56,586 nt of DNA from a virus: the IMG/VR virus record IMGVR_UViG_3300031565_000038, positions 1 through 56,586 of that record; one strand, written 5' to 3'. Shown piece after piece: positions 11,853 through 27,525 of this stretch. The notes below the pieces were generated by a model that had not been told where the DNA came from, made no database searches, and saw only the letters and a list, made by a program, of their open reading frames with translations. The first letter of the stretch is position 1. The number at the start of each line of letters is the position of its first letter. Both the position numbers and the translations under genes were made by a program.

Positions 11853-12144
11853 GTTATAACCCATTTTTACTTTTGTACAGTTCAATCAGTTCTGCAAAAG
11901 ATATTACAGGTACTCCAAAATCTCCTTCTTCTGCAAACCCATGTACTTCAATAAATTTTGTTGCTTCAATCACTTCTATTTTTGCTTCTTTAACAAGCCA
12001 TATCCAAAATGGGGTTATAACACTACCTATATGTAATGCCTTTCCGTTTTTATCAAATATTTCTAAGTTATCCATTGTTTAAGTTTTTTAAGTTAGTATA
12101 GTAATTTATTTAAGTCGGCGCTACACATAGACAAACCGTTAGCA
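11853..12144. mobile_element. Solo integron-like cassette with attC-like site
   Basis: The cassette runs from GTTATAACCC at 11853 to G at 12138, and the bases ending at its left AAC (GGGTTATAAC, 12012-12021) mirror that start exactly. The site has arm TACCTATATGTAATGCC paired with GGCGCTACACATAGACA and right core GTTAGCA. One gene (11854-12075) is inside. Confidence 0.75.
11854..12075 (-). CDS. Hypothetical cassette protein, 73 aa
   Basis: It begins MDNLEIFDKNGKALHIGSVI, a small beta-rich protein of unknown role. It is the only gene of a solo cassette; the stop TAA is formed by the GTTATAA core at 11853 and the start lies in the attC-like loop. Confidence 0.58.
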   Translation of the reverse strand: MDNLEIFDKNGKALHIGSVITPFWIWLVKEAKIEVIEATKFIEVHGFAEEGDFGVPVISFAELIELYKSKNGL

Positions 12145-12153
12145 AACATTTGA

Positions 12154-12483
12154 CTACACACACTCGGATACTATACTCCATTCTTTATCTGCATAAAAAT
12201 CGGTATTGAAATAATAATGACCGCCTTTTGCTGTTATCTTATGATTTTTAAACCACCACCAAGTCTCCTTAAATTCATAAATCAATTCTTCATTATCAGA
12301 CCATCCTCCTGTATGTATTGATATAAGATTTTCATCTTCTTCTATTGAACCATAATTAATATCATACATACCTTTAAACAGCAAAAAGGATTCATCAGCT
12401 AATTCAAGCGCTTTAGAATTTACATTTACTATTTTACCATTTTCTTTTTCGTACATTAAATATTTTTCAAACCTGTTTTCCAT
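12154..12483 (-). CDS. Hypothetical protein, 109 aa
   Basis: An acidic, Trp-rich protein (ETWWWFKNHKI) starting MENRFEKYLMYEKENGK. No family recognised. It ends with TAG near the cassette core at 12138, so its 3' end behaves like a cassette gene even though no attC-like site was found upstream. Confidence 0.55.
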   Translation of the reverse strand: MENRFEKYLMYEKENGKIVNVNSKALELADESFLLFKGMYDINYGSIEEDENLISIHTGGWSDNEELIYEFKETWWWFKNHKITAKGGHYYFNTDFYADKEWSIVSECV

Positions 12484-12505
12484 CGCTTAAAACGTTTTAC
12501 TAAGA

Positions 12506-12661
12506 TTATTTTTTTATTTTTTCTTCCAATATGCTTGTCCTGCCCTCAATCCATCCGCTATAAAAGCTTTTCCAGTCCAACCCTTTGTGTTCAAGTTCTT
12601 TAAAACGCTCTTTTACATCTCCTATTATTTCTTTGCTTGACGGCGGTTTTTTTGCTTTCAT
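12506..12661 (-). CDS. Small hypothetical protein, 51 aa
   Basis: It starts at ATG 12661 (MKAKKPPSSKEIIGDVKERF); an upstream start would overlap the preceding gene. A short helical, charged protein. It follows the outer-membrane-like gene by 11 bases. Function unknown. Confidence 0.45.
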   Translation of the reverse strand: MKAKKPPSSKEIIGDVKERFKELEHKGLDWKSFYSGWIEGRTSILEEKIKK

Positions 12662-12672
12662 ATATAGGTTTT

Positions 12673-13236
12673 TTATAATACAGTTGAAAAAGTCAACCCG
12701 ATGTTCCATTTTGCCTTGCCGTAAAAATACACCAGTCCTGAGCCGATCCCGACCTTTGATTTTTCGCTTATATTTATTTCTGGGTTAAAAAAAATACTTG
12801 CTAAATATAATTGGTCAAAAAACGTCAAGTCAATTTTTGTCCATTTCCATTTGAGCAAAGCCTTGAAAGAATGGTTTCCCGTATTTATAAAAGAGTACCC
12901 AAAACTGAACCATTTTGTAAAAGGATAGGTAAATGAAGCAGAAAAATAATCTATCCGCTTCTCTGTATCCATGAAATATTCAACCCCTCCGTATCTTGTA
13001 TTAATTGCGGCCATATAGGAATAGTAAGGGTTTCCATTGTCTCTCTCATAGTTAACCATACCCCTTATCTCCACACATGAATCAATGAGCGTCTTTGCTT
13101 CGATCTTTGAATAGTAGTCGAAAAGACAGGTGTCTTTTGCATTTCTACTGTTCAAATGCAGTTTGATTTCGGTCTGTGAAAAAAGGCTCGATGAAACCAA
13201 TAAGATCAATATAATTAAAGTGCTTAATCTTTCCAT
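12673..13236 (-). CDS. Exported, outer-membrane-like protein, 187 aa
   Basis: A clear signal peptide (MERLSTLIILILLVSSSLFS, then Q) is followed by alternating aromatic beta strands ending in GLTFSTVL, which resembles a small outer-membrane beta barrel. It could alter the host surface, for example superinfection exclusion, but nothing in the sequence proves this. Its base composition is less AT-rich than the neighbouring small genes. Confidence 0.55.
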   Translation of the reverse strand: MERLSTLIILILLVSSSLFSQTEIKLHLNSRNAKDTCLFDYYSKIEAKTLIDSCVEIRGMVNYERDNGNPYYSYMAAINTRYGGVEYFMDTEKRIDYFSASFTYPFTKWFSFGYSFINTGNHSFKALLKWKWTKIDLTFFDQLYLASIFFNPEINISEKSKVGIGSGLVYFYGKAKWNIGLTFSTVL

Positions 13237-13263
13237 TTTATGTTTTTTGGTTTTGTATTCTTT

Positions 13264-25968: not shown

Positions 25969-26431
25969 TTTTAATATATTTTTCGTAAGTTTTTATGAAC
26001 CCGTCAACAGTTCCGGAACCCTTGTAAGTATTGTAACGTTTTTTCCATAATGCAGCCATTCCTTCAATGTCATGGATTTTAGGAAGTTTTTCTGGATATC
26101 TCCTATATTGGAATCTGCAAAAGCAAATGGAAAGCACATCGTTGTTTTCAAGGTACTCTGCCATTAAATCTTCAACACCAGCTTCTTTCATTACAAGATT
26201 CTTCAACATTGGGTTGTACTTCAAGAAATGCTGGATAATGTCATAAAATGTACTTGGTTCTATTTGACATATGCCCAATGCTGGACCGCCGCCGATCTGC
26301 TTCCTGTATTTCCCCATCAGGCTTTCTTTTGCGATCGTTCCTAATATAAGATATAGGGCTTCATCGGAATAAAGCCCTATTGATTTCAAAGTATCTGTTA
26401 TCAGCTTTTCAAGCTTTTTCCTTTCGATCAT
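25961..26431 (-). CDS. Lysozyme-like endolysin, 156 aa
   Basis: Residues about 28-65 (LGTIAKESLMGKYRKQIGGG, PALGICQIEP) carry a Glu followed by a Gly-rich turn and the GICQIEPS motif, typical of lysozyme/transglycosylase folds that cut peptidoglycan glycan strands. No signal peptide, so it needs the holin. ATG overlaps the holin stop. Confidence 0.7.
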   Translation of the reverse strand: MIERKKLEKLITDTLKSIGLYSDEALYLILGTIAKESLMGKYRKQIGGGPALGICQIEPSTFYDIIQHFLKYNPMLKNLVMKEAGVEDLMAEYLENNDVLSICFCRFQYRRYPEKLPKIHDIEGMAALWKKRYNTYKGSGTVDGFIKTYEKYIKNG

Positions 26432-26733
26432 TTCTTGTTAACCCCTAATGTTGTCTTGATATTTTTGTCAGCAATCTTTATAATGGATTTAAAAAGCTTC
26501 TGCCCGGTTATTCCAAAGCACATTGCGGTTATCTTCGTGAAGTCGAATCCATGAAGCATAAACTGGTCTGGTTTTAGTTCCAATGCCCAAATCAATACAC
26601 ATCCCGCCAGTACATTTGTAAATATACTGACAAAATATTTAAGTGTAAAAATACCTTTTCCAGTTGCTCCCACAAAATCTATAAGTGCATAAACCGTTGC
26701 ACCTATCAGTACTGCCAAATAAAGTTCTTTCAT
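26428..26733 (-). CDS. Holin-like membrane protein, 101 aa
   Basis: Two or three hydrophobic segments (MKELYLAVLIGATVYALIDF, then NVLAGCVLIWALEL), then a basic tail. Right before the endolysin with overlap ATGA, as holins usually are. Predicted to form lesions in the inner membrane. Confidence 0.68.
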   Translation of the reverse strand: MKELYLAVLIGATVYALIDFVGATGKGIFTLKYFVSIFTNVLAGCVLIWALELKPDQFMLHGFDFTKITAMCFGITGQKLFKSIIKIADKNIKTTLGVNKK

Positions 26734-26829
26734 AATGTTTTGTTTAAAATTTATGTAAAGGTAAGGTTTTTTTGTTTGAAAATCAAATATTGGTATCTGT
26801 GGTGCATATATTCAGTAGTTACCACACAT

Positions 26830-27123
26830 TTAAGAGTATGGTTGGTCAAATCCGTAATCTTCGCCAAATTCCTTTTCAAATTTTAAAGTTGCGTGTTCTT
26901 CACAAGTGGCTTCTATTTCTTTGGTTTCTAATATACCATCACGCTTCCAGCAATCAAAGAAGAATAAACGTGTGGTAACAACAGGTATAGTTAAATTTTC
27001 AACTCGCTTTAGTGCAAAATCTACACCTGCTTGGAATCCATTACCAAAGTATGCGTTACTTCCTGCTTTTTTATAGGCTTCATCTATGCCTTTTACTATT
27101 TCTTTTTCTTCAATCTGTATCAT
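26830..27123 (-). CDS. Hypothetical cassette protein, 97 aa
   Basis: Mixed helical/beta protein (GFQAGVDFALKRVENLTIPV). First of two tandem cassette genes in front of the lysis module. The frame passes through the left attC arm at 26973. Confidence 0.55.
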   Translation of the reverse strand: MIQIEEKEIVKGIDEAYKKAGSNAYFGNGFQAGVDFALKRVENLTIPVVTTRLFFFDCWKRDGILETKEIEATCEEHATLKFEKEFGEDYGFDQPYS

Positions 27124-27181
27124 AATTTCTGTTCTTTTAAATCGTTAAAAATCAAACCATACCCAAACCGTTAGCCACCAT

Positions 27182-27451
27182 TTAACGACAGTCAAACGAT
27201 GGGTTGAAAATTGGTTGTTCACCAGAATTCCACGGCGATTTAATCCATATCCAACAACTATCTTGATTTCTTTTTATTCTCACATCGTTTTCTAAAACAT
27301 CTCTTTGTCCTTCAAAGTATGCTTGTTCTAATGCTTTCGTTACATCCGATTCTTTTACCACTCCGTAATCACAAGAAGTAAATAAAACGGTGGCTAACAA
27401 GGTGTATAAAAAATACCTTGCTTTTCTGGTAATTGAACTTTTGTTTTTCAT
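27182..27451 (-). CDS. Lipoprotein-like cassette protein, 89 aa
   Basis: Starting at ATG 27451 gives MKNKSSITRKARYFLYTLLA and then a lipobox (LFTSC) followed by DYGVVKE, a typical lipoprotein signal. The mature part is helical and ends NPSFDCR. It may sit in the host envelope, for example for exclusion. Its left attC arm lies inside the gene. Confidence 0.58.
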   Translation of the reverse strand: MKNKSSITRKARYFLYTLLATVLFTSCDYGVVKESDVTKALEQAYFEGQRDVLENDVRIKRNQDSCWIWIKSPWNSGEQPIFNPSFDCR

Positions 27452-27525
27452 ATCAAATTTATTTTTAAAATTAAACATTATCTCTTTATTGTCGGTACTT
27501 TTCATACACCCGACATTAGGGCGAA

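Follow-up and report, generated by a model that had tools for sequence, protein, structure and literature searches.

Integron-type gene cassettes with antisense genes at scattered places in the genome of a phage of Bacteroidota-type hosts

The window analyzed here is the whole 56,586-nt stretch of IMG/VR virus record IMGVR_UViG_3300031565_000038, which is rated a complete virus record and has every clear gene on the minus strand. A 126-nt perfect terminal repeat at 2-127 and 56461-56586 indicates that the record is circular, or, as a side entry words it, circular or terminally redundant. The replication genes identified encode a DnaB-like helicase, a DnaD-like loader, a YqaJ/RecE-like exonuclease (21761-22390) and NinG. 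The large terminase has distant relatives in Flavobacterium, Polaribacter, Cellulophaga and Bacteroides phages, and the virus belongs with Bacteroidota-type hosts. No match to the integron integrase family TIGR02249 above the cut-off is present anywhere in the 56,586 nt, and the attC sites therefore stand without a neighboring intI, as in CALINs and SALINs. Cassettes occupy a main array and five further places, designated S1-S5.

55871..55935, plus: low flank of the main array, comprising a docking sequence and the first cassette bases (direct repeat D8)
55924-56586: continuation of the main array, across both record ends
859..10217, plus: part of the main array, with about 20 attC-bearing cassettes; all genes antisense
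11854..12138, plus: S1, solo cassette; start 11853/11854 at G/TT, 10-nt mirror, attC partner score 19
About 12012-12031 and 12110-12140: S1 attC arms
11854-12075, minus: S1 antisense gene, 73 aa, no family match, start inside attC
13581..13633, plus: S2 low flank, a copy of the main-array low flank, ending at G/TT
13634..14097, plus: S2, solo cassette; 10-nt mirror, attC 13975-14105, score 25
13646-13939, minus: S2 antisense gene, product resembling the T7 gp5.9 RecBCD inhibitor
18505..18817, plus: S3a cassette; attC score 30, 8-nt mirror GTTGTATG/CATACAAC read from the sequence
18515-18784, minus: S3a antisense gene, 89 aa, mostly surrounded by attC arms near 18628 and 18819
18818..~19136, plus: S3b cassette; attC 19051-19142, score 22, mirror with one mismatch
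18837-19034, minus: S3b antisense gene, 65 aa
23314..23607, plus: S4, solo cassette; 9-nt mirror, attC 23495-23615, score 23
23330-23476, minus: S4 antisense gene, 48 aa
26819..27170, plus: S5a cassette; 10-nt mirror, attC score 22
26830-27123, minus: S5a antisense gene; attC arms near 26979 and 27172
27171..~27517-27518, plus: S5b cassette; 10-nt mirror, outer core CA/TTAG
27182-27505, minus: S5b antisense ORF, whose start may lie downstream; lipoprotein-like signal peptide encoded by attC

A preliminary description of this DNA had proposed that single or paired cassettes lie scattered at these five places. Mirrors far above chance, attC stems with R and L boxes, and G/TT ends bear this out, with S1, S2 and S4 solo and two cassettes each at the third and fifth places. 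The low-end coordinates 11853, 13633, 23313 and 26818 were correct; 18622, given for the third place, is an attC arm within S3a, which begins at 18505. All the S1-S5 genes are antisense to their cassettes, with stop codons 1-20 nt from the cassette start. The start codon falls within attC in S1, S3a, S5a and S5b, and 25-42 nt beyond attC in S2, S3b and S4. The S2 protein matches PF25708 (E 1.4e-13) and phrog_6234 (E 8.5e-12), and as a RecBCD-inhibitor-like gene is thus carried as a cassette, the system may shuffle counter-defense genes. No family match was found for the cassette genes of S1, S3a, S3b, S4, S5a and S5b.

Own-start mirrors were searched as GTT starts with a reverse complement ending in AAC at a distance of 100-900 nt, with shuffled controls. 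Five mirrors of at least 10 nt were observed at 11-28 kb, where shuffles gave 0.3 (maximum 2); the main array held 12 (0.27 in shuffles) and the late region one (0.2). By these counts, the cassette starts are complementary to their own R'' boxes. The claim that each scattered cassette has such a mirror holds for S1, S2, S3a (8 nt), S4, S5a and S5b, and for S3b only with one mismatch.

Stems of the form R''-L''...L'-R' were scored, likewise with shuffled controls, and the attC sites fall on one strand both in the array and in the solos. The R''/R' and L''/L' stem is clear in S2, S3a, S3b, S4 and S5a and weak in S1, whose attC is the weakest of the set, with a score of 19 and no predicted hairpin. 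The S5b stem was seen by eye, and was missed by the script because its core is mutated. Partner-arm scores are 19-30 for the attC at the high side of the cassettes and 13-15 at the low ends, which have no partner; for some main-array members the partner arm was not detected. DNA folding energies are weakly supportive: the S2 hairpin is more stable on the minus strand (-13 vs -10 kcal/mol on the plus strand), S3b has z = -2.26 on the minus strand, and the predicted S4 and S5b hairpins do not pair the arms. At their high ends, S3b and S5b carry CA/TTAG in place of CG/TT, which indicates loss of the core G; a CA/TTAG core is expected to be inactive under established integron rules. A 34-nt perfect repeat (10482-10515 and 19081-19114) is an attC loop common to the high end of the array and S3b. 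Within the main array, attC arms 282-432 nt apart at 4131-4638 and 3849-4131 (minus) enclose whole genes, and the genes 4077-3907 and 4537-4220 are each an attC loop.

The direction of the cassettes was derived from arm geometry and from junctions in related phages. Two arms recur on the minus strand, an outer one, TAACGNNNN.GTATG, and an inner one, TAACAAN.GTATA, with spacers of 4-6 nt and 2-4 nt, respectively, longer on the R' side and shorter on the R'' side. The same asymmetry is seen in chromosomal integron arrays beside intI in genomes of the phylum containing the reference MAG. In those arrays the inner-type arm is R''L'' and follows the stop codon of the gene, and the outer-type arm is L'R' and bears the G/TT cut. 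In every cluster of the phage a complete attC is found on the high-coordinate side, and the low end lacks one.

Near relatives of the record were not found by a DNA-level search, and searches with genes flanking S1-S5 returned distant relatives or none, with no empty site among them. The module beside S1 is present in four contigs at 82-90% protein identity, with homology stopping before S1; the distant relatives L001-L004 have no convincing attC. The prediction that empty sites would be rejoined at G/TT could be followed in other viruses, where it is supported, and no empty version of S1-S5 itself was found. The Polaribacter phages P12002L and P12002S carry the same attC type as the record on near-identical backbones. 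A methyltransferase cassette present in P12002S is absent from P12002L; at this joint (J1), 969 identical nt are followed by a 3-nt overlap, ACG/TTA, and then by 4987 identical nt. The low-end docking site of the two phages shows 4988 identical nt, with divergence setting in 2 nt past G/TT. An exact pair was also found in IMG/VR: the empty contig L116 reads CTCAACG/TTAATTAATTG and the filled contig L121 reads CTCAACG/TTAGCGG...attC...CAGCCG/TTAATTAATTG. Both pairs thus exhibit the precise insertion or excision at G/TT that characterizes cassettes, and differences of whole cassettes between sister phages at such joints show that exchange does take place. P12002L and P12002S also differ by a 47.4 kb indel, which has no attC and is unrelated.

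One further P12002L/S joint, of a three-cassette block (J2), is a hybrid within an attC arm, with 12 shared nt to the left of G/TT, which shows that homologous recombination between attC arms also occurs. Together with the RecE-like exonuclease and NinG encoded by the record, this joint would suit an account in which phage-coded recombination (RecE-like exonuclease plus annealing) joins attC arms with no integrase at all. Such an account appears improbable, as most P12002L/S joints share only 2-3 nt around G/TT between otherwise identical flanks and always lie at that site, whereas random short-homology joints should fall equally often elsewhere in the arms.

The G/TT joints of the P12002L/S and L116/L121 pairs map to the outer arm on the strand that does not carry the genes; the cassettes accordingly run on the plus strand and their genes are antisense. 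The alternative, in which the cassettes lie with their genes on the minus strand and each start codon is supplied by the attC of the preceding cassette, draws on the symmetry of the own-start mirrors, which alone are compatible with either strand, and on attC-coded N-termini on unrelated gene bodies, as if leaders had been re-paired. It is nevertheless very improbable and largely refuted, since those joints sit at the outer-arm G/TT of the plus strand, all low ends lack attC and the arm asymmetry is the opposite of that required. A cassette read in the direction of its gene was ruled out by the junctions and the arm asymmetry.

The phage cassettes therefore have an antisense gene polarity, with attC at the 5' end of the gene and often containing its start codon; the preliminary description had given no polarity. 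The usual cassette trait of a sense gene with its stop next to attC, which is not strictly required, is absent. Polarity was called by simple ORF-length rules, which gave antisense to sense counts of 10:1 in the record, 6:0 in P12002L and 9:0 in P12002S. Among the matches listed, the non-redundant virus sites comprised 80 antisense, 6 sense and 25 unclear cases, and virus sites with an own-start mirror were antisense in 47 cases and sense in none. Canonical bacterial integrons gave 51 sense, 5 antisense and 4 unclear genes, and bacterial-genome sites of the same attC type 14, 4 and 2, respectively. The inverted polarity argues that the phage cassettes are not simple copies of bacterial ones and raises the question of why attC is tied to the start of the gene in phages and to its stop in bacteria. 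Being antisense to its cassette, the gene reads along with the leftward early genes.

Unrelated proteins share N-termini encoded by attC, because attC covers the gene starts. An attC-coded N-terminus is common to the unrelated proteins of S1 (MDNLEIFDKNGKALHIGSVI..) and L068 (MDKLEIFDKDGKVLHIADVI..), and the signal-peptide-like KARYFLYTLL precedes different gene bodies in S5b, L119 and L173. More generally, attC segments at 27384-27509, 12015-12142 and 3076-3198 of the window have homologs in L119, L173, L068, L069 and L096; they encode N-terminal leaders, one of them signal-peptide-like, which in those other phages precede unrelated gene bodies. Integrons commonly carry similar attC sites on unrelated cassettes, and here the outcome is a shared protein leader.

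The low flanks bear on how the scattered cassettes arrived. Direct repeat D8 is 65 nt long, reaches 12 nt into the cassette and is 92% identical between S2 and 55871-55935. The preliminary description had suggested that cassettes also enter secondary sites; this needs qualifying for the 13.6 kb place, whose nearly identical 65-nt flank makes it look more like a duplicate of a single docking site. Low flanks outside the D8 pair have nothing obvious in common and no attC-arm score above chance. When they were considered as decayed attC halves, a position-weight matrix scored them no better than random GTT sites, 10-52% of which reached as high a score. Being unlike attC half-sites, these flanks fit non-attC target sites; entry of cassettes at secondary sites is likely. 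The six places thus probably fall into two classes, one with a duplicated docking sequence and the other with unrelated GTT sites. P12002L has a comparable 68-nt, 100% identical flank ahead of two of its clusters; beside neither repeat was an intI present or an integrase-binding box identified, and a scan of viral contigs did not find the docking sequence. A cluster lies just upstream of ninG in both phages (S3 in the record and, in P12002L, the one at 37.2 kb).

The same features were weighed against an origin of the solos as remnants of longer arrays shrunk by deletion, the docking flank having been duplicated by ordinary recombination. The genes on the high side of S1-S5 do start like further cassettes (TTAGCAAAC.., TTATAGCG.., TTAGGGC..), the cores of S3b and S5b are dead, and the docking repeat is present twice, as is its counterpart in P12002L. 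We nevertheless consider shrinkage rather unlikely: the low flanks do not resemble decayed attC arms, every cluster is flanked by genes from different replication or structural modules, and many other virus contigs contain isolated attC sites.

The reading we prefer, with a probability of roughly 0.78, is that the five places hold integron cassettes like those of the main array, moved by an integron integrase supplied by the host and organized as described above. Since the phage encodes none, the enzyme would come from the host. Each cassette would span, on the plus strand, from G/TT to the attC at its high end, and the integrase would cut at G/TT on the outer arm (L'R'), presumably recombining the bottom strand. 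It would move cassettes into and out of attC sites, or of a small number of docking sites that the phage genome carries, and S1-S5 may have entered by the same reaction. The gene would be carried antisense, with a stop codon close to where the cassette begins and a start codon in or just inside attC. Cassette anatomy, the lack of IntI in the record, the exact joints in related phages and the antisense polarity are demonstrated. Nearly all cassette genes of this virus and its kin are oriented opposite to those of bacterial integrons, which suggests a cassette type particular to phages and traded by means of a recombinase taken from the host. A wider proposition, for which we judge the odds to be even, is that phages of Bacteroidota-type hosts keep their own pool of inverted-gene cassettes, traded via host integrases and docked at duplicated sites, in which the start codon, and at times also an N-terminal leader or a signal peptide, comes from attC.

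A degenerate form of the attC pattern occurs in at least 119 stretches in IMG/VR and in 24 of 395 genomes of a phylum sample, the phylum labels of which rest on reference MAGs. A search of 50 other virus records (P12002L and 49 bearing either attC sites of this kind or the conserved neighbor module) found no IntI above the curated cut-off; six of these records gave weaker tyrosine-recombinase matches. Among the matches listed, virus loci of at least 8 kb had one attC in 24 of 73 cases and two in 16, and shuffles gave none; with so many loci of only one or two attC sites, scattered cassettes appear to be common in the group. In bacterial genomes, the same attC type was seen at scattered single places (L177-L196), up to four per genome, mostly far from any intI and mostly with sense genes. 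An ASCH-domain cassette gene had no cassette context in bacterial genomes.

To our knowledge, phage integron cassettes are known, but not their movement in nature or their relation to bacterial cassettes. Sedentary chromosomal integrons (such as L053, with intI and an attC array) share with the phage sites the arm geometry, the extra base in L'', the G/TT ends and the own-start complementarity. They differ in carrying intI, the phage record having neither an intI nor a demonstrated attI or Pc, and in having sense genes with the stop next to attC, where phage genes have the start next to or inside attC. CALINs of virulent phages, described by Qi et al. 2023 (PMC9892861), are likewise attC arrays in lytic phages lacking intI. 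P12002L in particular has the same attC type and a terminase remotely related to that of the record, and Qi et al. report laboratory recombination of one of its attC sites into attI1 by IntI1. Their work requires at least two attC sites per cluster and reports divergent directions for P12002L, with which the uniform polarity found here conflicts. In comparison, the present system comprises six places, single cassettes, uniformly antisense genes, start codons in attC, the exact P12002L/P12002S exchange and a repeated docking flank. Insertions at attG and SALINs (Loot et al. 2024, cited in PMC12901181 and PMC12690207) are similar in being single cassettes outside attI and attC arrays, with target flanks that lack attC features and end at G/TT. 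They are reported from bacterial genomes, whereas the cassettes here lie in a phage and two of the targets share 65 nt.

Between the main array and S1, a YrlA-like Y RNA candidate was noted at 10837-10961 (minus), in which a tRNA-like T-arm half precedes the D-arm half; its match to RF02553 (33.4 bits, E 1.6e-5) is under the gathering score. The block of 10.6-11.8 kb around it, including the gene 11041-11709 (phrog_1491, labeled tail fiber), is kept in four other loci (L197-L200).
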